From NCBI RefSeq assembly GCF_003609645.1, contig NZ_MCIB01000007.1:1-64000 (forward strand): a stretch of 64,000 nt of DNA. Reading direction: 5' to 3'. The DNA is from Thermohalobacter berrensis. GTDB taxonomy: Bacteria > Bacillota > Clostridia > Tissierellales > Thermohalobacteraceae. The notes under the pieces are model-generated. The model made no database searches. It had not been told where the DNA came from and saw nothing but the letters and a program-made list of their open reading frames with translations. Each line of letters begins with the position of its first letter. Position 1 is the first letter of the stretch. This document shows, piece by piece, positions 5,259 to 58,265 of this stretch. Position numbers and translations under genes: made by a program.

Positions 5259-5813
5259 ATGCGAACATTTATCGCTTTGACTTTTGATAATAATTTGAAG
5301 AAAAGGCTAGGAAAAATACAGAAAAAAATTAGAGAATATTCATTAAAAGGCCGTTGGGTTTATGTTGATAATTTTCATTTAACATTAAAATTTTTAGGGA
5401 ATATTAGTCCACAGGAGATTAATCGAATTAAGTTAGTATTAAATGATTTTTCTAAAAATTATTCTCCTTTAGATTTTTCACTTGATAATTTAGGGTATTT
5501 TCCAGGCAAAAATAAATTTAGAGTTGTGTGGTTAGGTATAAATGGAGATACACAATCTTTATATGATTTAAAATTAGATCTTGAAAATAAAATGAATAGC
5601 ATAGGTTTTGTTAAAGAAAAAAGAAGATATACTCCACATATTACCCTTGGAAGAGATATAGTATTTAATACTGAATTTAGTCAACTTAAAAATATAATAT
5701 CAGAAGATTTAGATTATGATTTTATTTTAGACAAAATAACTTTTATGGAAAGTAAACAAGTTAATAGAAAAAGAATTTATGAACCTATAGCTGAATATAA
5801 ACTTAAGGGTTAA
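5259..5813 (+). CDS. thpR: RNA 2',3'-cyclic phosphodiesterase (2H family)
   Basis: Member of the LigT/ThpR 2H phosphoesterase family, which opens 2',3'-cyclic phosphates on RNA ends; originally described as 2'-5' RNA ligase. The ATG at 5259 is used because GGGGTG precedes it and the protein then begins MRTFIALTF as family members do; an upstream in-frame TTG lacks a ribosome site. In the 184 residues the two catalytic HxT motifs are H40-L-T42 (HLTLKFLG) and H127-I-T129 (HITLGR). It is followed 30 bases later by a DUF896 gene. Confidence 0.93.
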   Translation: MRTFIALTFDNNLKKRLGKIQKKIREYSLKGRWVYVDNFHLTLKFLGNISPQEINRIKLVLNDFSKNYSPLDFSLDNLGYFPGKNKFRVVWLGINGDTQSLYDLKLDLENKMNSIGFVKEKRRYTPHITLGRDIVFNTEFSQLKNIISEDLDYDFILDKITFMESKQVNRKRIYEPIAEYKLKG

Positions 5814-5843
5814 TCTAGTAGATTATTTGAAAGGAGTGGAAAA

Positions 5844-6017
5844 ATGCTACCTAAAGAAAAACTAGACAGAATAAATTATTTAGCAAGAAAGTCAAAAAAG
5901 GAAGGTTTAACAGAAGATGAAAAAAAAGAACAAAAAAAATTAAGGGAAGAATATTTAAAAGCATTTAGAAAATCATTTAGACAGCAATTAGAGTCTATAG
6001 AAATTGTAGAAAATTAA
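5844..6017 (+). CDS. DUF896 family small protein
   Basis: A 57-residue ORF beginning MLPKEKLDRINYLARKSK, with AAGGAGTGG 7 bases before the ATG. The INxLARKxKxxGLTxxEKxEQxxLRxEYLxxFR pattern is that of DUF896 (the YnzC/YneF-like three-helix proteins of Firmicutes), some of which are linked to the SOS response in Bacillus. Charged, cytosolic, no cysteine. Function unknown. Confidence 0.88.
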   Translation: MLPKEKLDRINYLARKSKKEGLTEDEKKEQKKLREEYLKAFRKSFRQQLESIEIVEN

Positions 6018-6084
6018 AGGATAAATAAAAAAATTGTAGAATATAGTATTATGGCTAGTATTTTCTAGATAAGGAGGAAAATTT

Positions 6085-6543
6085 ATGAGTGAAAAACAAT
6101 ATGTTGTTTTTAAATTAGACGAAGAAGAATACGGAATAGATATTATGAATGTAAAAGAAATTGGACCATATCAAAAAAGTGTAAAAGTACCTAATTCTCC
6201 AAGTTTTGTTGAAGGAATTATAAATTATAGAGGGGAAGTTATTCCAGTTATAAACTTAAAAAAGAGATTTAATTTAGAAGATACAGGAATAGATAATAAC
6301 ACAAGAATAATAGTAATAACTCTTAAAGAAAAGCAAGTTGGATTTATAGTAGATGAAGCATCTCAAACTGTTAGAATAGATGATAAAGATATAGATCCTG
6401 CTCCAGAGATCGTTGCAGGTATTGATAGAAGATATATTACAGGGGTAGGAAAATTAGATGAAAGATTAATAATCCTAATTGATTTAGAAAAAGTATTATC
6501 AGATAAAGAAAAAGAAGAGATTGCGAATATGAATCTTGAATAG
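6085..6543 (+). CDS. cheW: CheW-like chemotaxis coupling protein
   Basis: A 152-residue single CheW domain (residues about 5-145), with EYGIDIMNVKEI, the NYRGEVIPVINLKKRF strand-loop and a DLEKVL end. CheW proteins bridge chemoreceptors and the kinase CheA. AAGGAGG precedes the ATG. No cheA, receptor or flagellar gene lies nearby, so it is an orphan copy, as is common in this group. It may serve motility or a separate signalling array. Confidence 0.93.
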   Translation: MSEKQYVVFKLDEEEYGIDIMNVKEIGPYQKSVKVPNSPSFVEGIINYRGEVIPVINLKKRFNLEDTGIDNNTRIIVITLKEKQVGFIVDEASQTVRIDDKDIDPAPEIVAGIDRRYITGVGKLDERLIILIDLEKVLSDKEKEEIANMNLE

Positions 6544-6663
6544 AAAGCTTAATATAATTGTCGAATAGGTTTTAATCTCAAAAAAAGTGAAAGATTATGT
6601 CAAGAAAAAAATATTTGTACTCTCCAATAAATACTAAAATTTTCATAACTGTTTTTCTATACT

Positions 6664-6684
6664 TAATGTTAAAGATTAACATTA
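6664..6684 (+). promoter_or_regulatory. 9-bp palindrome just upstream of a secreted-protein gene
   Basis: TAATGTTAA at 6664-6672 and TTAACATTA at 6676-6684 are perfect inverted repeats around AGA, ending 5 bases before the AGGAGG site of the next gene. It could be an operator or an mRNA hairpin close to the ribosome site. No T-run follows. The 157-base gap from cheW (6544-6700) contains no other recognisable signal. Confidence 0.5.
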
Positions 6685-6700
6685 GGTTAGGAGGATAGTT

Positions 6701-7198
6701 ATGAAGAACGCAAAAAAAACCTCTTGTATCCCTGTAATTATATGTTTATGTTTAACTTTAATAATAATTACCTTAACAAATAATGAAGTAATAGCTTCAA
6801 GTGAAAAAGATAATAGTTTAATTTATTCCAAAGTTATAGAAGACTTGTTAAATAAAAGAGTGTTAATTATCAATAAAGCACTTTATACTAATAACTCTCA
6901 AAATATACTAAACAAATTAAAATCCATTGAAACAAATAATATTTTAACAGAAGACTTAAAATTCTTAGAAAAAAATAAAGATAAGAAAACAGATTATCCT
7001 TATATTCACAAAGTTAAAGTTAATAAATTATTAAATATAAATAAGAGTTCTTCAAAGCTTAAAGTAAAAGCTTTAACTGAATGGAAGATATCCTATCTTT
7101 ATAAAGATACCAAGGAAAAATATTATATGAATATTGAATTAGAAAAAAAAGGAAAAAAATATTTTATAAGTAGTATTGAACATATGATAAATAAATAA
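6701..7198 (+). CDS. Putative secreted or membrane-anchored protein of unknown function
   Basis: 165 residues with an N-terminal signal or anchor (VIICLCLTLIIITLTNNEVIA, about residues 11-32) followed by a lysine- and asparagine-rich domain. The C-terminal part (KLKVKALTEWKISYLYKDTKEKYYMNIELEKKGKKYFISSIEH) reads like alternating beta strands, reminiscent of NTF2-like extracytoplasmic domains, but I do not recognise a family. AGGAGG lies 8 bases before the ATG. It is monocistronic, with a palindrome upstream and a terminator directly after it. Confidence 0.75.
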   Translation: MKNAKKTSCIPVIICLCLTLIIITLTNNEVIASSEKDNSLIYSKVIEDLLNKRVLIINKALYTNNSQNILNKLKSIETNNILTEDLKFLEKNKDKKTDYPYIHKVKVNKLLNINKSSSKLKVKALTEWKISYLYKDTKEKYYMNIELEKKGKKYFISSIEHMINK

Positions 7199-7200
7199 AA

Positions 7201-7236
7201 AAAATACATCCATAATTTATGGATGTATTTTTTTTA
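7201..7236 (+). terminator. Rho-independent terminator
   Basis: ATACATCCATAA and TTATGGATGTAT pair across 7204-7228, flanked by A and T runs, so the hairpin can work on either strand. It closes the 6701-7198 gene. Confidence 0.85.
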
Positions 7237-7335
7237 TTTATATAAATTTGAGAATATTCGACAAAAATTTCAGGTGATTTGCAGGATAATTTGTTGAAAA
7301 ATAGAATATATATTTATTATGGGAGTGTGGTTAAA

Positions 7336-8925
7336 TTGAGGACTAAAATATTATTATTAATGATATTTATAGTTGTTTTTTCAAATTATGCATTTTCTGA
7401 AGATATTTGGTATTACCAACCCTATCCTCAAGGATTAATTGGTGTATCAAAACCTACAATAACTTGGTATTTTGATAAGCTTGGAGAAAATAGTATAACT
7501 TCTGTAGATATATTAATTGATGGTAATAAATATAAAGGAGTATATAATAGAAAATTAAAGAGAATAAGTTATATTCCAGAAGAGGAATTATCCCCTGGAA
7601 AACACAATGTTACAATTATTGTAACATTAGATGATAGCAAAAAAATAAAGCAGTCTTTTGAATTTGAAATAGATGAAGATGCTTTACGTAAAATTGAGAA
7701 AATAAGTGAAATAGAAGAAATTAAGAACACATTGAATAAGTATAGAAAAATCCTTAAATTAGCCCCGGTTAGATTTAATGATAGCTTAAATATGGCAGCA
7801 AAAATGCATAGTAATTATATGTTGGCTAATAAGGATACAGGACATTATCAATATGATAAAGAAAACCCCTTTTATATTGGTGAAGAACCTTTAGACAGGG
7901 TGAAATATTATAACTATTCAAGTCCAGTTATTGATGAAGAAATTAATTTTATAAACTCCCATCAATTAGCAATTATTGATTGGATGAATTCTATATATCA
8001 TAGATTAAGTCTTATAAATCCTGCTTTCACAGAAATTGGCTATGGCTTTAGTAGTAATGAAAATAGTTCTATAGATGTTTTAGTTTTAGGTGCGCCTAAA
8101 TTTAATAGTATAGAAGAAAAAATTATCACTTATCCAACAGATGGTCAAAGGAATGTTCCAATTAAATGGGATGGCAAGGAAACACCTAATCCTTTAAGAG
8201 AATTTGAAGAAACTGAAACTCCAATGGGTTATCCTATTACTTTATTGGTTTCTGGAAAGGATATTGAATCAGTAAAAATAAATAAAGCCCTTTTAAAAAC
8301 TAACGATAAAAAGGTAAAGTCTTATATTTTGGTACCAAAACTCAATAAAGAAAATTTATATAATACTCCATATTTAAAAGAGGATGAAAAATTAAAAAAA
8401 GAAATAATAATAATTCCAGCTAAAATATTAGAAAAAAACCAAAAGTATAGTGTGGAGATTGCAGGGAAAATAATTTATAAAAGTGGAGAAGAAAAAGATT
8501 TTTCGAAAAAATGGGGATTTACAACAGGTAATGGTGAGTTTAGGTTTGATTACCAAGAAAATAAAGAAGAATTGAATATATACTTTAATAATATGGAGGT
8601 TTTTTTAAACAATTCTCCTTTTATAACAGAAGGAGTAACTATGGTGCCATTAAGGGAATATTGTGAGTTTTTAGGTATTAAAGTATCTTGGAATGGAAAA
8701 GAAAAATCTATAACTCTTAAAGGGTTTGATAAAGAGTTATTTTTAAAGATAAACAGTAATAAAGTACTAGTTGATAATATTAGCAAAGAGATGAGAAAAA
8801 GTGTAATATTAAAAGAAGATAAATCTTACGCTCCATTAAGATTTATATCAGAAGCCTTTGGATTAAATGTTAAGTGGGATGGTGAGTATAAGGATATATT
8901 TATAAGATCAAAAAAGAACAATTAG
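7336..8925 (+). CDS. Secreted CAP-domain protein with C-terminal stalk (copper amine oxidase N-like) domain
   Basis: TTG at 7336 is chosen because GGGAGTG precedes it and it places a signal peptide at the N-terminus (RTKILLLMIFIVVFSNYAFS); an earlier in-frame start at 7279 would bury it. The 529 residues show a beta-sandwich-like segment (about 35-115), a CAP/SCP domain (about 130-260, NKYRKILKLAPVRFNDSLNMAAKMHSNYM, then GHY and WMNSIYHR), an Ig-like middle, and a copper amine oxidase N-terminal-type stalk (about 425-525, MVPLREYCEFLG and YAPLRFISEAFG) as found in many clostridial wall proteins. Probably cell-wall associated. It precedes a DegS/DegU-like pair by 18 bases. Confidence 0.88.
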   Translation: MRTKILLLMIFIVVFSNYAFSEDIWYYQPYPQGLIGVSKPTITWYFDKLGENSITSVDILIDGNKYKGVYNRKLKRISYIPEEELSPGKHNVTIIVTLDDSKKIKQSFEFEIDEDALRKIEKISEIEEIKNTLNKYRKILKLAPVRFNDSLNMAAKMHSNYMLANKDTGHYQYDKENPFYIGEEPLDRVKYYNYSSPVIDEEINFINSHQLAIIDWMNSIYHRLSLINPAFTEIGYGFSSNENSSIDVLVLGAPKFNSIEEKIITYPTDGQRNVPIKWDGKETPNPLREFEETETPMGYPITLLVSGKDIESVKINKALLKTNDKKVKSYILVPKLNKENLYNTPYLKEDEKLKKEIIIIPAKILEKNQKYSVEIAGKIIYKSGEEKDFSKKWGFTTGNGEFRFDYQENKEELNIYFNNMEVFLNNSPFITEGVTMVPLREYCEFLGIKVSWNGKEKSITLKGFDKELFLKINSNKVLVDNISKEMRKSVILKEDKSYAPLRFISEAFGLNVKWDGEYKDIFIRSKKNN

Positions 8926-8943
8926 CATAAGAGGTGTTTTATT

Positions 8944-10116
8944 ATGCCAAAATCAAATTTTACAATAGATAAGATTGACCAAATATTAAAAGAAACAATA
9001 GAATCGATTAATAAGGGTAAAGAAGAAATATTTGAAATAGCTGAAAATGCCAGAAAAGAATGCGATATGATTAGAAACGAATTAGAAGATGTAAAGGAAA
9101 AAACAAAAGACATTATTAAGGAAGTAGACAAGCTGGAACTAGAAGAAAGAAAAAGTAGGAAAAGATTGCTAATAGTTAGTAGGGATTTTAAAAAATATTC
9201 GGAAGAGGATATTAAAAAGGCATATGAAGAGGCAAATAATTTACAGATACAGCTAATTTTTAAAAGACATCAAGAGAAGGAAATGGCAAAAAAGAGGAGA
9301 GAATTAGAAATAAGATTAAAAAATGCAAAAGATGTTGTAGAGAGGGCAGAAAGGCTAGTAACACAGGTGGGAGTAGCAATGGATTATTTGAGTGGTAATC
9401 TTGAAGATATTCTAGTAACTATTGAAGATATGCAGAAAAAACAGTTACTAGGTATAAAGATACTACAAGCACAAGAAGAGGAAAGACAAAGAGTAGCAAG
9501 GGATATTCATGATGGTCCTGCACAATCTATGGCAAATGTAGTATTAAAAGCAGAAATTTGTGAAAAGCTTTTAGCTTTAGATGAGGAAAAAGCAAAAATA
9601 GAGCTTAAAAATTTAAAGGACATAGTAAGGAATAGTCTTAGAGATGTAAGAAAGATTATATATGATTTAAGACCAATGTCCCTTGATGACTTAGGACTTA
9701 TACCCACAATTGAGCGTTATGCATATAATTTTACTAAAGAAACAGGAATTAATGTCGATGTTATTCTATATGGCAAATATGAAAAACAAGAGTCTATAGT
9801 TGAGATTGGAATATTTAGGATTATCCAAGAAGCACTTAATAATATAAAAAAGCACTCAAAAGCCAACAGTGCTATAATAAAGATAGAAAAATCAAATGAT
9901 GAAATTATTATAATTGTCAAAGATAATGGAATAGGTTTTAATGTAGATAAAGAATTAGAACAACATAACAATTCAGGTGAAAAATTTGGTATTTTAGGTA
10001 TGAAAGAAAGGGCAGAACTTATGAATGGAGAACTGAAGATAAATTCTTTTCTAGGCAAAGGAACAAAAATAATTATAAAAATACCTCTTTATAGGAAGGA
10101 TGATATTAATGACTGA
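8944..10116 (+). CDS. DegS-like cytoplasmic sensor histidine kinase
   Basis: 390-residue soluble kinase. Residues 1 to about 165 form a charged coiled coil with no membrane segment, as in DegS. The HisKA_3 box is [20 protein letters not shown] with the phospho-accepting His189. The HATPase domain follows, with [15 protein letters not shown] (N box), DNGIGFN and [16 protein letters not shown]. Its last 8 bases overlap the response regulator gene, so the two are translationally coupled. The coiled-coil input suggests it senses an intracellular state or protein partner. The 18-base spacing from the CAP-protein gene hints at cotranscription. Confidence 0.92.
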
Positions 10117-10762
10117 TAAGAAAATAACTGTTTTAATTGCTGATGATCATTCACTAGTAAGGGAGGGCTTAGAACAAATTTTAAGTCTTGAAAAAGATAT
10201 AGAAGTAATAGGACAAGCTTCTAATGGTAATGAAGCAATTGAAAAAACTTTAGAATTAAAGCCAGATTTAGTTCTACTTGATATAAATATGCCTGAATTA
10301 AATGGGATAGAAACACTAAGAAGACTTAAAGATATGGGAATAGATTCGAAAATTGTTATGTTAACAATCCATGATGATAGAGAGTATTTATTTGAAACTG
10401 TTAATATTGGTGCTGATGGATATGTTTTAAAAGATTCAGATTCAGACAGTTTAGTAAAAGCAATTAAGGATGTATATTCAGGAAAATCTTATATCGAACC
10501 AAGTCTAGCTTCTTTGTTAGTAAAGGAATTTAATAGTAGAGATAGGGCAAAGGAATCTACTAGAGATTTATTAACAAAGAGAGAATATGAAGTATTAACT
10601 TTAATTGCTGAAGGATTAAATAACAGAGAAATTGCTCAAAGACTATTTATTAGTGAAAAAACAGTTAAAAATCATGTTTCTAATATTTTCAAAAAGATAA
10701 ATGTTAGTGATAGAATTCAAGCAGCTATATATGCATATAAAAATAATATTAAGAAAATATAA
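10109..10762 (+). CDS. NarL/FixJ-family response regulator, DegU-like
   Basis: 217 residues from the ATG at 10109, which sits 8 bases after AGGAAGGA; an in-frame ATG at 10100 overlaps that site. The receiver domain has the acidic pair D12/D13, phospho-acceptor D58 (LVLLDINMP) and a K in YVLKDSD. A LuxR-type helix-turn-helix follows ([42 protein letters not shown]). Overlap with the kinase gene identifies its partner. Target genes are not evident from the sequence. Confidence 0.93.
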
Positions 10763-16027: not shown

Positions 16028-16561
16028 TTACTGTATAATTTCATTAAGTAACTTAACTGCTTTATCAATATGTTTTAAATTAACTGTTTTTGCTCCTATA
16101 AAATTACGGTCTGTATCTAGTGGTTTTGTTCCAAATCCGTCTTTATCATATGCTACCATCATATTCCTCATAAACTTCACATCAATAACTAAAAACCATT
16201 CCCTTACTAAAGGATGGTTTGGTGGTAAATTAATAAATTCAATATTAGGATGAGATTGAGGTTTTTTATCATTCACACCAAATACATAAATTTTATCTAC
16301 ATTAATAGCCATTTTTAAAAACCTATCCCACACTCCTTCAGTTCTAGATAGTTTCTGAAAGCCTGCGTAAACTATACCATTCCTCTTTTTCTTTAAGATC
16401 ATACTTTCCATGATGTAACACATACGTTCTAAATTTCGAACTTTAGTTTCGTATTTTATTGTATTTTTAGAGAGAACACTATCGGAAGCTTTACCTTCTA
16501 TTTTTTGAACATCACCTTCTACTTTATCAAAGATTTCTTTAAATAATGATATTCTTTTCAT
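16028..16561 (-). CDS. DICT-like sensory-domain protein
   Basis: 177 residues, soluble. The central pattern (GIVYAGFQKLSRTEGVWDRFLKMAINVDKIYVFGVNDKKPQSHPNIEFINLPPNHPLVREWFLVIDVKFMRNMMVAYD) resembles the DICT sensory domain found beside diguanylate cyclases, two-component proteins and light-response genes. I make this match from memory. Its ATG overlaps the stop of the RibU-like gene by 4 bases (ATGA), so the two are translationally coupled. The pair is divergent from the cobalamin-binding XRE regulator at 17348. Confidence 0.55.
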   Translation of the reverse strand: MKRISLFKEIFDKVEGDVQKIEGKASDSVLSKNTIKYETKVRNLERMCYIMESMILKKKRNGIVYAGFQKLSRTEGVWDRFLKMAINVDKIYVFGVNDKKPQSHPNIEFINLPPNHPLVREWFLVIDVKFMRNMMVAYDKDGFGTKPLDTDRNFIGAKTVNLKHIDKAVKLLNEIIQ

Positions 16562-17166
16562 TTAAAATCCCCCTTTTTATTTTTAATAAAATATATTTTC
16601 TTTTGAATAAGCGGACAAACAAAAAAACTTGTTAAAGATAAGATACTAAACTTTATAATGTTAAATGGAAAAATTATTATTGCAAAATACCAAATAAAAT
16701 TATGTATAAGTGGGTTACTTGAAGCTGCTAGTTTAAGAATAGATTCAGGTTTAATATTTAAAATATATCTATATAACGGAAACATGATATAATAATTTAC
16801 AGGAATTGAAATAAAACTAGTACCAATTGTTGCGATGATTAATGAGGATAATATTTTTCCAAACTTTTTGTAAGATATATAAAAAATAAGTATATATGTA
16901 GTAATTATTATAAAGTTTATGAGTTCCCCAATTCCAAGGGATTGAGATACAAATAAATGGAGTATATTTTTTATAACACTGATCCAAATAGCATTGTTTA
17001 AACCAATTGTTAACAGACCAATAATTACAGGCAAATCACTAATGTCTAACTTTAAAAAAGGAGGAAAAAATGGAATACTTATATTTAAGAACATTAAAAT
17101 AAATGAAATTGCACCAAGAAGGGCAACTTTAATTTGATTATTTATACTTGAGTTTGTTAATTTCAT
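16558..17166 (-). CDS. ECF-transporter substrate-binding membrane subunit, RibU-like
   Basis: 202 residues with about five or six transmembrane helices. The segment IPFFPPFLKLDISDLPVIIGLLTIGLNNAIWISVIKNILHL matches the riboflavin-type S component (PxFLKLDxSDLPxLIG...K.xxHL). These subunits bind a vitamin and use a shared energising EcfAAT module, not present here. No FMN riboswitch precedes it; instead there is a sigma-A promoter and an operator-like palindrome. Riboflavin as substrate is inferred from the motif. AGGAGG precedes the ATG. Confidence 0.8.
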   Translation of the reverse strand: MKLTNSSINNQIKVALLGAISFILMFLNISIPFFPPFLKLDISDLPVIIGLLTIGLNNAIWISVIKNILHLFVSQSLGIGELINFIIITTYILIFYISYKKFGKILSSLIIATIGTSFISIPVNYYIMFPLYRYILNIKPESILKLAASSNPLIHNFIWYFAIIIFPFNIIKFSILSLTSFFVCPLIQKKIYFIKNKKGDFK

Positions 17167-17218: not shown

Positions 17219-17268
17219 AAATTAGGGCTAATTTATTAATATTATAATACACAAAATGAAATAATTCA
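17219..17268 (-). promoter_or_regulatory. Promoter and operator of the RibU-like/DICT-like pair
   Basis: On the minus strand TTGAAT (plus 17264-17269 region) and TATAAT (plus 17241-17246) are spaced 17 bases. Immediately downstream, at the expected transcription start, AAATTAG-GG-CTAATTT (17219-17234) is a perfect 7-base inverted repeat, a position typical of a repressor site. The divergent XRE regulator is the obvious candidate to bind it. Confidence 0.65.
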
Positions 17269-17309
17269 AGAATTGGCTGGAAAAATAGGGTGAAAAATTT
17301 AAAATATAA

Positions 17310-17320
17310 CACAAATTGTG
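17310..17320 (+). promoter_or_regulatory. Palindrome upstream of the XRE-cobalamin regulator
   Basis: CACAA-A-TTGTG is a perfect 5-base inverted repeat 27 bases before the ATG at 17348, close to TATATA (17329-17334 region). Possible autoregulatory site. The half-site differs from the palindrome at 17219-17234, so one protein need not bind both. Confidence 0.4.
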
Positions 17321-17347
17321 ATAAGATTATATATAGGGGTGAGTCTA

Positions 17348-18250
17348 ATGGCGACTTTTGGAGAGAGATTAAAAGATTTAAGGAAAACTCATAATTTAAG
17401 ACAAAAAGACTTAGCAAAAGAACTTGGATTAGCTCAAACAACAATAGCTAATTATGAGCAAGGTACTAGGTTTCCAAATCAGGATATATTAAATAAATTT
17501 GCTGACTATTTTAAAGTCTCTTTAGACTATCTTCTTGGAAGAGTAGATATTCATGATTTTAGAAAAGATTTAGAAGAGATTAAAGTTTACAAGGGAAAAA
17601 AGGAAGAATATTTAAAAGAAATAGAATTAAAGTATTTTAATATATTATTAAGTGGAAAAAGGGATGAGGCTTACAATTTAGTTAATGGAGCAATTAGAAA
17701 TGGAATAGATATAAAAGATATATATAAATATGTATTTGAAGTTTCTTTAAAAAGGGTAGGTGAACTTTGGGAGAAAAATAAATTATCTATTTCAGATGAA
17801 CATTATTTTTCCCAGTCAACAGAAACTATTATGTCCCAGTTATGCTCTAATATATATTTAATTCCTAAAAAAGATAAATTAGCAGTTACATTATCAGTAA
17901 ATAGTGAATTTCATACTTTAGGCATAAGAATGATTACAGACTTTTTAGAATTAGATGGATGGAATACTATATTTTTAGGCAATAACATTCCTACTAAAAG
18001 TGTTGTAGATCTTATAAAAACAAAAAAACCAGATTTACTTGCTATATCTGTAACAATGAATTTTAATTTTAATTTGGCAAAAGATCTTATTAATACTATT
18101 CGCTCATATGAAGAGACAAAAAATTTAAAAATTATTGTGGGAGGAAGGGCATTTAACTTTCAAAAAAATGCTTGGAAGGAAGTTGGAGCTGATGGATATG
18201 CTAAAGATGGATTTGAAGCTATTAGGGTGGCGAATAATCTAATCAATTAG
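17348..18250 (+). CDS. XRE-type HTH fused to a CarH-like cobalamin-binding module
   Basis: 300 residues from the ATG at 17348 (GGGGTGAG upstream). Residues 5-62 are an XRE/Cro helix-turn-helix (FGERLKDLRKTHNLRQKDLAKELGLAQTTIANYEQG). Residues about 95-170 match the B12-binding helical cap and carry W141-x9-E151-H152, the W-x9-EH signature of adenosylcobalamin in CarH/LitR photoreceptors. Residues about 178-300 form the Rossmann-like B12 domain with E187-F-H189-T-L-G192, a variant of DxHxxG keeping the cobalt-ligand histidine. CarH and LitR use a MerR-type DNA-binding domain; here it is XRE-type. Likely a cobalamin- and possibly light-responsive repressor. Its 3' end overlaps the convergent ytrI-like gene by 12 bases. 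Confidence 0.87.
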   Translation: MATFGERLKDLRKTHNLRQKDLAKELGLAQTTIANYEQGTRFPNQDILNKFADYFKVSLDYLLGRVDIHDFRKDLEEIKVYKGKKEEYLKEIELKYFNILLSGKRDEAYNLVNGAIRNGIDIKDIYKYVFEVSLKRVGELWEKNKLSISDEHYFSQSTETIMSQLCSNIYLIPKKDKLAVTLSVNSEFHTLGIRMITDFLELDGWNTIFLGNNIPTKSVVDLIKTKKPDLLAISVTMNFNFNLAKDLINTIRSYEETKNLKIIVGGRAFNFQKNAWKEVGADGYAKDGFEAIRVANNLIN

Positions 18251-18706
18251 TCTCACTTTAATCCAAATTTTTAATACGTTACTTAATACGAGTTTTGTTA
18301 CTTCAAGTTTATATATTTTGTCATCCAGCTTTATAATCCTTTGGTCAACAATTTCTTTTACCATATCAATGTCTATTTTTTGTACTTCTTTACCTAATAA
18401 ATTTTTATATTTTTCTTTAATATTTTTTTCAAGACTTATTTTGTCTAAATCGTCACCATCATATATAAGGATTATTTCAATACTTTGTAATATAAATCTT
18501 CTATTATTTATTGATTTTTCAAGTTTTTTTAGTTTTGTATCTTTATCTTCAATTACATTTTCTAGATATTTTATTTTTTCATGATATTTATCTATTCTAA
18601 AGCTAACTAAAGTAGTCATGATTGATATTCCTATAATTATTCCAAATATATTACCAACAATTAATGTTAAAAAAAAAGACAAATATTTTTTCTTTATTCT
18701 AGCCAT
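18239..18706 (-). CDS. ytrI: YtrI-like sporulation membrane protein
   Basis: 155 residues: an N-terminal transmembrane helix (SFFLTLIVGNIFGIIIGISIMTTL), a coiled coil (YHEKIKYLENVIEDKDTKLKKLEKSI) and a C-terminal domain. The architecture and position directly after ytrH, overlapping it by 13 bases, match YtrI, a SigE-dependent spore membrane protein in Bacillus. Sequence similarity in this family is weak, so the name rests largely on synteny. The stop region overlaps the convergent regulator gene. Confidence 0.6.
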   Translation of the reverse strand: MARIKKKYLSFFLTLIVGNIFGIIIGISIMTTLVSFRIDKYHEKIKYLENVIEDKDTKLKKLEKSINNRRFILQSIEIILIYDGDDLDKISLEKNIKEKYKNLLGKEVQKIDIDMVKEIVDQRIIKLDDKIYKLEVTKLVLSNVLKIWIKVRLID

Positions 18707-19041
18707 AACTTACTACTCCTCTGAATCATTTTAATTAGACTATATGCTAAATTTGCTCCGGTTAGTGCAATAAGAATGTATATAATTTGCTTAATAACTG
18801 ATCTGAACTCACCCTTTAATAAGCCCTTTTCAATTACCTGAAAAGAAGTAAAAGTTCCCCCTAAAGCCACTGCAACTGCCCAAATTTTAATAGAGCTTGC
18901 TACATTTAACATTGTCTTTAGTGGAGGGTGATCGTTTATAATAGCACCTAAACCAGCAAATATACTTGCACCGAAGGTAACTCCGAAGGCTATTAAAAAA
19001 TCATATAAAAGATTTGATATAAAATCTGTCACATTAATCAC
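18694..19041 (-). CDS. ytrH: YtrH-family sporulation protein
   Basis: 115 residues with three hydrophobic segments. FLIAFGVTFGASIFAGLGAIINDHPPLKTMLNVASSIKIWAVAVALGGTFTSFQVIEKGLL follows the YtrH family pattern. In Bacillus YtrH is made in the mother cell under SigE and is needed for efficient spore maturation. A SigE-like promoter lies just upstream (19064-19092), supporting the call and implying that this organism sporulates. Confidence 0.88.
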   Translation of the reverse strand: MINVTDFISNLLYDFLIAFGVTFGASIFAGLGAIINDHPPLKTMLNVASSIKIWAVAVALGGTFTSFQVIEKGLLKGEFRSVIKQIIYILIALTGANLAYSLIKMIQRSSKLWLE

Positions 19042-36063: not shown

Positions 36064-36095
36064 GCGGTTATCAAATTAGAATTTCTCCTTATCTT

Positions 36096-36131
36096 TTCTG
36101 TCTCCGTCCATAGCAAAGGCTCAGAGCAGAA
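36096..36131 (-). ncRNA. Candidate pan-motif RNA in the pantothenate operon leader
   Basis: The minus-strand RNA folds as TTCTG/CAGAA, TCTG/CGGA and CC/GG stacked segments with small bulges (C, AG, GA, A) around an 8-base loop. A stem-loop with conserved purine bulges before panB-type operons is what the published pan motif looks like, as I recall it. It lies 33 bases before the attenuator terminator, so ligand or protein binding could choose between terminator and antiterminator. Family assignment rests on context and shape, not on a covariance search. The whole 36000-36379 interval between divergent genes holds only this leader and the promoter below. Confidence 0.6.
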
Positions 36132-36201
36132 CCATTAATTAATATTTAATTTTAAGTAAATGATTAAATTGTGGTATAGTTCACACAAAGTGATACTATC
36201 C

Positions 36202-36229
36202 ATCATAAATTATTTTAACACATTGTCAA
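36202..36229 (-). promoter_or_regulatory. Promoter of the pan operon
   Basis: Minus-strand TTGACA (plus 36224-36229) and TATGAT (plus 36202-36207), 16-base spacer. The start is near 36195-36199, giving a leader of about 200 bases. The first RNA bases can form an ATAGT/ACTAT hairpin. Confidence 0.75.
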
Positions 36230-57683: not shown

Positions 57684-58265
57684 ATGAAGAAATTAATATT
57701 AGCCTCATCATCCCCGAGAAGAAAAGATATACTATCAAAATATAATATTGATATCAAAATAGTTGAGAGTAATATTAATGAAAAAATATCACAAAATGAG
57801 AGACCTAAGGATATTGCAATGTCATTAGCTTTTCAAAAAGCTTATGGTGTTGCCTTAAAAGTAGATAAAGGGGAAGTAGTCTTAGCCGCTGATACTATTG
57901 TAGTTTATAAAGGAAAAATTTTAGGTAAACCTCAAGATAGAGGTGAAGCTATAGATATGCTTTTAAACTTAAATGGCAAGGAACATTATGTAATAACAGG
58001 ATTAGCTATTATAAAAGCAGGTACTAAGACTAAAGTTGTCGATTATGAAAAAACAAAGGTTAAGTTTAGAAATCTAGATAGAAACAAGATTATTTCATAT
58101 GTTAATACAGGTGAATATTCAGATAAGGCAGGAGCTTATGGTATACAAGGGTATGGTTCAATACTAGTTGACAAAATAGATGGTTCATATTCTAACGTAG
58201 TGGGATTGCCAATCTCAAAAGTGGATTATCTTTTAGAAAAATTTTTTAATATAAAATTACTTTAA
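57684..58265 (+). CDS. maf: Maf nucleotide pyrophosphatase
   Basis: 193 residues; LILASSSPRRKDIL, the AADTIVVYKGKILGKPQDRGEAIDML block and GAYGIQGYGSILVDKIDGSYSNVVGLP. Hydrolyses non-canonical nucleoside triphosphates or dTTP/UTP; linked to septum control in Bacillus. Typical position before radC-mreBCD. Confidence 0.95.
   Translation: MKKLILASSSPRRKDILSKYNIDIKIVESNINEKISQNERPKDIAMSLAFQKAYGVALKVDKGEVVLAADTIVVYKGKILGKPQDRGEAIDMLLNLNGKEHYVITGLAIIKAGTKTKVVDYEKTKVKFRNLDRNKIISYVNTGEYSDKAGAYGIQGYGSILVDKIDGSYSNVVGLPISKVDYLLEKFFNIKLL

Follow-up and report, generated by a model that had tools for sequence, protein, structure and literature searches.

What does the regulator encoded at 17348-18250 sense, and which genes does it control? 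The window analyzed here is the whole 64,000-nucleotide stretch of Thermohalobacter berrensis DNA introduced above (genome G000). A preliminary description had proposed that a CarH-like cobalamin sensor on an XRE-type DNA-binding domain switches flavin uptake in response to light or B12. Our best reading of the sequence is a B12/light switch divergent from RibU-like and DICT genes, which are laid out as follows.

17348-18250, plus strand: XRE-B12 regulator, 300 aa (ORF and Pfam)
Regulator residues 8-62: HTH; residues 96-165: B12-binding_2 cap; residues 179-292: B12-binding Rossmann domain (all Pfam)
17768-17770, W141 codon; 17798-17800, E151 codon; 17801-17803, H152 codon; 17912-17914, H189 codon (all counted from the start at 17348)
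16558-17166, minus strand: RibU-like substrate-binding component of an ECF transporter, the leading gene of the divergent pair (PF12822, 1.3e-22)
16028-16561, minus strand: standalone DICT-domain protein, 177 aa (PF10069, 2.6e-13)

The regulator matches HTH_3 (4.6e-14), B12-binding_2 (8.1e-11), and B12-binding (1.2e-20), all above cut-off. Its HTH_3 score of 52.6 bits, against a cut-off of 23, identifies the DNA-binding domain as XRE/Cro-type, and the protein also matches HTH_19; its helix-turn-helix is of Cro/C1 type. An alternative in-frame GTG start at 17318 would yield a protein of 310 aa. The Pfam scan of the regulator returned no MerR family match, and the NCBIfam CarH equivalog NF052513 scored 32.9 bits against a cut-off of 400; together, these two results place the protein outside CarH/LitR.

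The cobalamin pocket was compared with those of solved light receptors. The W141-x9-E151-H152 motif is present as GELWEKNKLSISDEH, and H189 sits in SEFHTLG, an ExHxxG variant. The nearest solved sequences found by phmmer are CtMerR (8jbs, 4.5e-17) and 8j2y (8.2e-17), which bears the PDB title photocobilin. In the alignment to 8jbs, GELW, EH, and the cobalt-binding His of the regulator fall over their counterparts, with W141, E151, H152, and H189 all aligned. Both motifs named in the preliminary description are thus where it had put them and line up with a light receptor pocket, and its view of an XRE-type DNA-binding domain joined to a CarH-type cobalamin domain is borne out by Pfam and this alignment. 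The structure model P0001 is of low confidence (pLDDT 54.6); its six best Foldseek rows are all light-receptor cobalamin proteins, with TM scores of 0.27-0.29 over the query, and these matches therefore carry little weight.

To place the pocket in context, we assembled an XRE-B12 set of 15 named proteins from 14 genomes, the window's (G000) included. Full XRE plus cobalamin proteins occurred in 10/249 genomes of the order sample (E <= 1e-30; the G035 match is cut by a contig end); the class sample (391 genomes, E <= 1e-45) added a protein in G596, and the phylum sample (398 genomes, E <= 1e-45) added proteins in G709 (two copies), G951, and G625. The samples overlap partly, and weaker XRE-B12 relatives would be missed.

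The regulator resembles CarH/LitR in its two-part cobalamin domain, its Trp/Glu/His cap, and its cobalt-binding His, and also in adjoining its presumed targets, with a CrtI-family neighbor in two relatives. It differs in carrying an XRE domain in place of the MerR DNA-binding domain and in its operator and targets. A further difference concerns the light state. In TtCarH, H132, the residue after W131, becomes the second cobalt ligand in light (PMC11796333); the window regulator has E142 in place of this second His, so the bis-His state has no counterpart here. CtMerR has Arg at the H132 position and is nonetheless light-responsive (PMC11796333), so a Glu after the Trp does not exclude light sensing, although by sequence it argues against an end state of the TtCarH type. 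Of the 15 XRE-B12 proteins, 12 have E after the Trp, and A, N, and G occur there once each. CtMerR (8JBS/8JBT) and the photocobilins (8J2W-Y), which are described as light-responsive (PMC11796333), are among the best PDB sequence matches of the window regulator. CtMerR shares with it the lack of the second His; both CtMerR and the photocobilins differ from it in their partner domains and in having GxxH where the regulator has SxxH. Altogether, the regulator probably works like CarH without being a member of CarH/LitR.

The published SignatureFinder motif for light-responsive cobalamin domains consists of GxxW, EH, GxxH, and GxxxP (PMC11796333). The window regulator has three of the four (GELW, EH, and GNNIP) and reads SEFH, with S186 for the Gly, at GxxH, so a strict form of the signature as given in that paper would miss it. 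GxxWx9EH is kept in 13/15 XRE-B12 proteins and the cobalt-binding His in all 15, while the GxxH glycine is kept in eight and all four elements in seven. EH is lost in two proteins, G709b and G625 (L082 and L068), which have also lost the G of GxxxP and keep the cobalt-binding His and the Trp, making them natural pocket variants. Light-responsive cobalamin domains have already been reported on HTH, DGC, BBD, GAF, and MEDS partners, and DICT is listed too in the Fig. 9 legend (PMC11796333); the XRE fusion is therefore a variant of a reported type. The main text of that paper never uses the term XRE, and its sections consulted here do not treat operators and target genes of these domains; our literature search found no publication joining a cobalamin-binding domain, the XRE family, and light. 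The earlier suggestion of a possibly undescribed system holds for the XRE subtype and its target but not for the HTH fusion. Outside the XRE-B12 set, a group of cobalamin proteins (L007, L009, L012, and others of ~350-390 aa), most with the W and EH and with a different N-terminus, in some cases adjoin GGDEF genes and are possibly other light-responsive cobalamin sensors.

The gene neighborhoods of the 15 regulators bear on what is sensed. Neighbor genes outside the profile scan were named from sequence. A CrtI-family desaturase gene is divergent from the regulator in G052 and G033 and absent in their congener G044; G020, the fourth genome of this genus, yielded no full-length XRE-B12 match. 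A UvsE endonuclease gene lies directly 3' of the G596 regulator, and CofG, CofH, DICT, and DUF1848 genes are divergent from one of the G709 regulators. Thus, 5/15 regulators adjoin CrtI (two), UvsE, FO synthase plus DICT, or RibU-like plus DICT genes, all of which have a known or predicted role in light or UV responses. This count leaves out the fasciclin gene found just upstream of the regulator on the same strand in G059, G035, G229, and G228 (the G229 copy was Pfam-scanned). Telling neighbors are absent at three of the 15 (G044, G709b, and G625).

Several other neighbors were recorded. At the fasciclin-linked loci (L089, L090, L091, and L088), the regulator gene comes second after that for the fasciclin protein. 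The G121 regulator has a LigB-family gene nearby (named from sequence). In G951 (L096), the regulator (9383-10279, plus strand) is divergent from a chemotaxis-like operon (5566-9227, minus strand) with CheY-, CheA-, and CheW-like genes, all read from sequence; on this evidence, control of movement by light is possible for that regulator.

The same domain could instead report AdoCbl supply, that is, B12 status, with photolysis irrelevant in a possibly dark-living anaerobe. The regulator of G013, the closest relative of the window regulator, is consistent with this: it adjoins no light gene but a zf-like Cys-rich gene (named from sequence), whose family we take to be linked to B12. The light- or UV-themed CrtI, UvsE, FO synthase, and DICT genes near 5/15 regulators point the other way, as do the lack of a cobalamin riboswitch in the window and the finding that, among eight neighboring proteins scanned, only the regulator has a B12 family. 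We regard sensing of B12 status as unlikely. A redox or oxygen switch, in which the cobalamin domain reports oxidation, would draw on partly the same neighbors: carotenoid genes and UvsE would suit oxidative damage as well, and together with the MsrA-like gene (named from sequence) that lies second upstream of the G013 regulator, they could make up an oxidative-stress response. In light receptors, the adenosyl group is contacted by the Trp/Glu cap (PMC11796333); that this cap is kept here speaks against a redox switch, which we consider distinctly improbable.

The HTH domain also shows similarity to RstR, a phage repressor (69.9 bits, under the cut-off of 80), and viral contigs contain many HTH-only relatives; the 80 viral-contig matches to XRE-B12 that were kept cover no more than residues 1-127, the HTH end. 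These matches would fit a repressor of phage type that picked up its corrinoid domain and acts on its own gene alone. On the other hand, the full-length proteins lie among chromosomal-looking genes at the loci read, and operator-like sites occur in the divergent promoters too; we regard a self-controlling phage-type repressor as very improbable. The plasmid search with XRE-B12 returned 11 records, in each of which only the cobalamin part was matched.

On the minus strand, the RibU-like and DICT ORFs overlap by 4 nt (16558-16561). The RibU-like protein is an ECF S component related to RibU, with the riboflavin uptake protein 3p5n as its best solved match (5e-18), and the DICT protein scores 50.5 bits for PF10069 against a cut-off of 23.8. 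These family matches and the ORF layout confirm the divergent RibU-like and DICT genes that had been read from the sequence earlier. The structure model of the DICT protein is of low confidence (pLDDT 42). The pairing is not widely shared: a RibU-like/DICT pair stands beside XRE-B12 in only one of the 14 XRE-B12 genomes, that of the window (G000). What recurs is XRE-B12 facing DICT, in two genomes (G000 and G709). The regulator tree places G000 and G013 in one half and G709a in the other, with weak support, and a sister grouping of the two DICT-facing regulators (G000 and G709a) was not recovered.

Standalone DICT genes are rare (1/248 genomes of the order and 6/398 in the phylum sample, E <= 1e-10), and all six of these loci adjoin genes for flavin-type supply: RibU-like in G000, G671, and G841, and CofG plus CofH in G709, G793, and G910. 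Identity to the window's DICT protein is 51-55% for the other five, and in G671, G841, and G910, DICT is followed by a DICT-HD gene (HD-GYP type, read from sequence). The CofG and CofH proteins of G709, G793, and G910 all pass the NCBIfam equivalog cut-offs. CofG scored above cut-off in 3/80 genomes, all DICT carriers, and in 0/3 RibU-type carriers and 0/74 others (Fisher 2.4e-4), in a set that was partly chosen and in which none of the 74 others is known to carry DICT, with G596 untested for DICT. Searches of plasmids and viral contigs found no DICT. A DUF1848 (PF08902) gene lies near DICT in two genomes (L094:5079-6068, minus strand; L102:15986-16903, minus strand). DICT has been predicted to act in light response (PMC8612252), and DICT-HD-GYP proteins are reported in Microcystis (PMC7063779). 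Among the literature matches listed, which covered titles and abstract openings in part, none linked DICT to deazaflavin or flavin supply; the window protein differs from this published picture in being a standalone DICT domain (PF10069) tied to such supply.

CofG and CofH make FO. The exchange of RibU-like and CofG/CofH genes beside DICT argues for one shared ligand, and the simplest reading of these gene arrangements is that they represent two routes to the same molecule. In G709, no RibU-like gene was found. YvcK was the only match there in the CofD family (CofC and CofE lay outside this search), and F420 synthesis was rejected for this genome on that ground. The PF00875 photolyase is absent in G709 and in the window genome and present in G671; a photolyase of this family was thus rejected as the FO user in G709 or the window genome. 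PF00875 occurs in 6/18 genomes, a sample outside which G793, G841, and G910 fall, with no simple link of this one family to DICT or XRE-B12. With YvcK as its only CofD-family protein and no PF00875 photolyase, G709 looks like a genome in which FO is an end product, and no other use of it is evident there. FO has been described as a photolyase antenna and an F420 precursor, and it is said to pass through membranes with ease (PMC8498797); a transporter for FO would then be less necessary.

The RibU-like protein of the window shares its family and best solved matches with RibU. It is a diverged paralogue of a copy under an FMN riboswitch in the same genome (G000:C12:137962-138483, L125) and differs from RibU in three respects: it has no FMN riboswitch, it falls in a weakly supported DICT-linked group, and it alternates with FO synthase. 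The FMN riboswitch is absent at all three DICT-linked RibU-like copies (window; L102/L118; L138) and present at 6/8 RibU copies with no DICT link (L124 and L126 are those without); no riboswitch that could control the RibU-like/DICT pair was found in the window at the gathering threshold. In the tree, the three DICT-linked copies group at 80/86 support, with G000 on a long branch.

The cargo could also be riboflavin itself, with DICT using riboflavin or FMN and FO limited to the CofG/CofH lineages. The nearest solved relatives of the RibU-like protein are riboflavin transporters, and flavins are common light chromophores. Set against this, G000 already has a RibU under an FMN riboswitch (L125), and CofG/CofH and RibU-like genes alternate beside DICT proteins that are half identical or more to that of the window. 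Riboflavin as cargo thus appears somewhat doubtful. Of the flavin uptake target proposed in the preliminary description, the RibU-like family and the 3p5n match stand, and the cargo is more likely to be the deazaflavin FO. That DICT is an FO-binding light-sensor domain, and the DICT-linked RibU-like protein an FO transporter, is a tentative proposal to which we give slightly less than even weight.

The following elements lie between the divergent genes.

17219-17234: palindrome AAATTAGGGCTAATTT, exact, near the expected minus-strand transcript start
17241-17269, minus strand: putative ribU-like/DICT promoter, TTGAAT - 17 nt - TATAAT
17250-17258, minus strand: predicted operator CATTTTGTG, in the -35/-10 spacer of the putative ribU-like/DICT promoter
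17299-17327, plus strand: putative regulator promoter, TTAAAA - 17 nt - TAAGAT (consensus match only)
17310-17320: predicted operator CACAAATTGTG, a palindrome, in the -35/-10 spacer of the putative regulator promoter, beside the -10

The AAATTAG/CTAATTT palindrome had been singled out earlier. It is indeed exact and close to the expected transcript start, but it does not stand out from chance. In 500 Markov simulations of the AT-rich gap, inverted repeats with arms >=7 and a gap <=4 appeared in 53, and arms >=7 at any gap tested appeared in 158. Nor is it among the inverted repeats listed upstream of eight other regulators. On these two grounds (53/500; the eight other regulators), the palindrome is probably not the operator and was set aside; CA-N3-TGTG is the better candidate by sequence.

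A CA-N3-TGTG-N-TA pattern was found by eye in nine upstream regions (the window and eight others) before counting. TGTGNTA sites have CA five bases upstream in 13/15 cases within 200 bp before 10 regulators and in 5/93 cases elsewhere in the same loci; the corresponding counts for bare TGTG are 18/26 and 52/792. The p-values (4e-11 and 6e-15) are inflated, as the pattern was drawn from nine of the ten loci counted. The window palindrome CACAAATTGTG was counted on both strands, so the 13 matches represent 12 places, and the 10-regulator count left out the fasciclin-linked G059, G035, G229, and G228. Among loci that had no part in finding the pattern, G121 has two sites, and the 200 bp upstream of the regulators in G059, G035, G229, and G228 contain none. 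The full match is also absent upstream of the G709b and G625 regulators. Looser CGTG/AGTG variants precede the fasciclin genes in three of four cases (G229, G035, and G059), two of the four with CA. The element of the window's ribU-like/DICT promoter, CATTTTGTG, fits CA-N3-TGTG and not the longer form, and that of the G709 cofG promoter, TTACAATACGTGATA, is a CGTG variant.

Both putative window promoters contain the element in their spacer, and most, though not all, of the relatives' promoters have it too. CA-N3-[TCA]GTG falls within a promoter-like spacer in 9/12 upstream regions (not G052, G228, or G059), compared with 0 to 1.8% of random 250-bp stretches from the same loci, with [TCA] chosen after the variants had been seen. 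Promoter-like sites themselves are no commoner in this region of the window than in shuffles (20 vs. a mean of 21). Read with a loose promoter pattern that had no control of its own, the register of the ribU-like/DICT promoter is that of the G709 (L094) cofG promoter and the G951 (L096) divergent promoter. TGTG ahead of a -10 box resembles an extended -10; the CA of the element does not follow from an extended -10 and is not explained by one. Four DICT operons lack an adjoining XRE-B12 gene, and none of them has CA-N3-TGTG in its upstream 200 bp. Its predicted position, between -35 and -10, points to repression by the regulator. One more match to the motif, at 57798, was dropped, since it lies inside a maf-like coding gene (named from sequence).

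Taken together, we consider it reasonably probable that the regulator is an AdoCbl-dependent, light-released repressor of a module for chromophore supply and DICT, the chromophore probably being FO; our confidence in the cobalamin domain alone is higher than in this whole reading. In the dark, adenosylcobalamin would be held by H189 and capped by W141/E151/H152, and the AdoCbl-loaded regulator would sit on its CA-N3-TGTG sites and keep both its own promoter and the RibU-like/DICT promoter off. Light would break the Co-C bond, the regulator would change or fall apart, and both transcripts would start. The induced pair would then comprise a chromophore supply and a protein that uses the chromophore: the RibU-like component may import it, probably as the 5-deazaflavin FO (8-HDF), which other lineages would make themselves with CofG and CofH, encoded next to a DICT gene of the same kind, and DICT may use FO in light sensing or light protection. 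What the sequence shows is the domains and pocket residues, the order of the genes, the recurrent element in the promoters, the replacement of RibU-like by CofG/CofH, and the missing FMN riboswitch; from these we infer the role of CA-N3-TGTG as operator, cobalamin binding, release by light, the ligand, and the role of DICT.

New in this analysis are the CA-N3-TGTG element, the light-themed neighbors of 5/15 regulators, and the tie of DICT to RibU-like or CofG plus CofH. With a predicted operator and target, they make cobalamin light sensing testable in an anaerobe from a spore-forming lineage. They also lead us to propose FO as cargo for a RibU paralogue and a ligand for DICT, a domain whose role in light is only predicted in the literature consulted. 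If the DICT/FO reading is true, this would be a two-tier light system, in which a B12 switch turns on the uptake and the receptor of a second chromophore, and the DICT-HD genes of three relatives would pass a light signal into cyclic-di-GMP. FO would then be a sensory pigment in bacteria apparently without F420 (in G709 also without a PF00875 photolyase), giving a deazaflavin a new role as a chromophore for sensing.

Two further features of the window were noted. YtrI-like (below cut-off) and YtrH sporulation genes occupy 18239-19041 on the minus strand, with 12 nt shared, on opposite strands, between the YtrI-like gene and the 3' end of the regulator. A pan motif (RF01749) scores above its gathering score at 36094-36202 on the minus strand.
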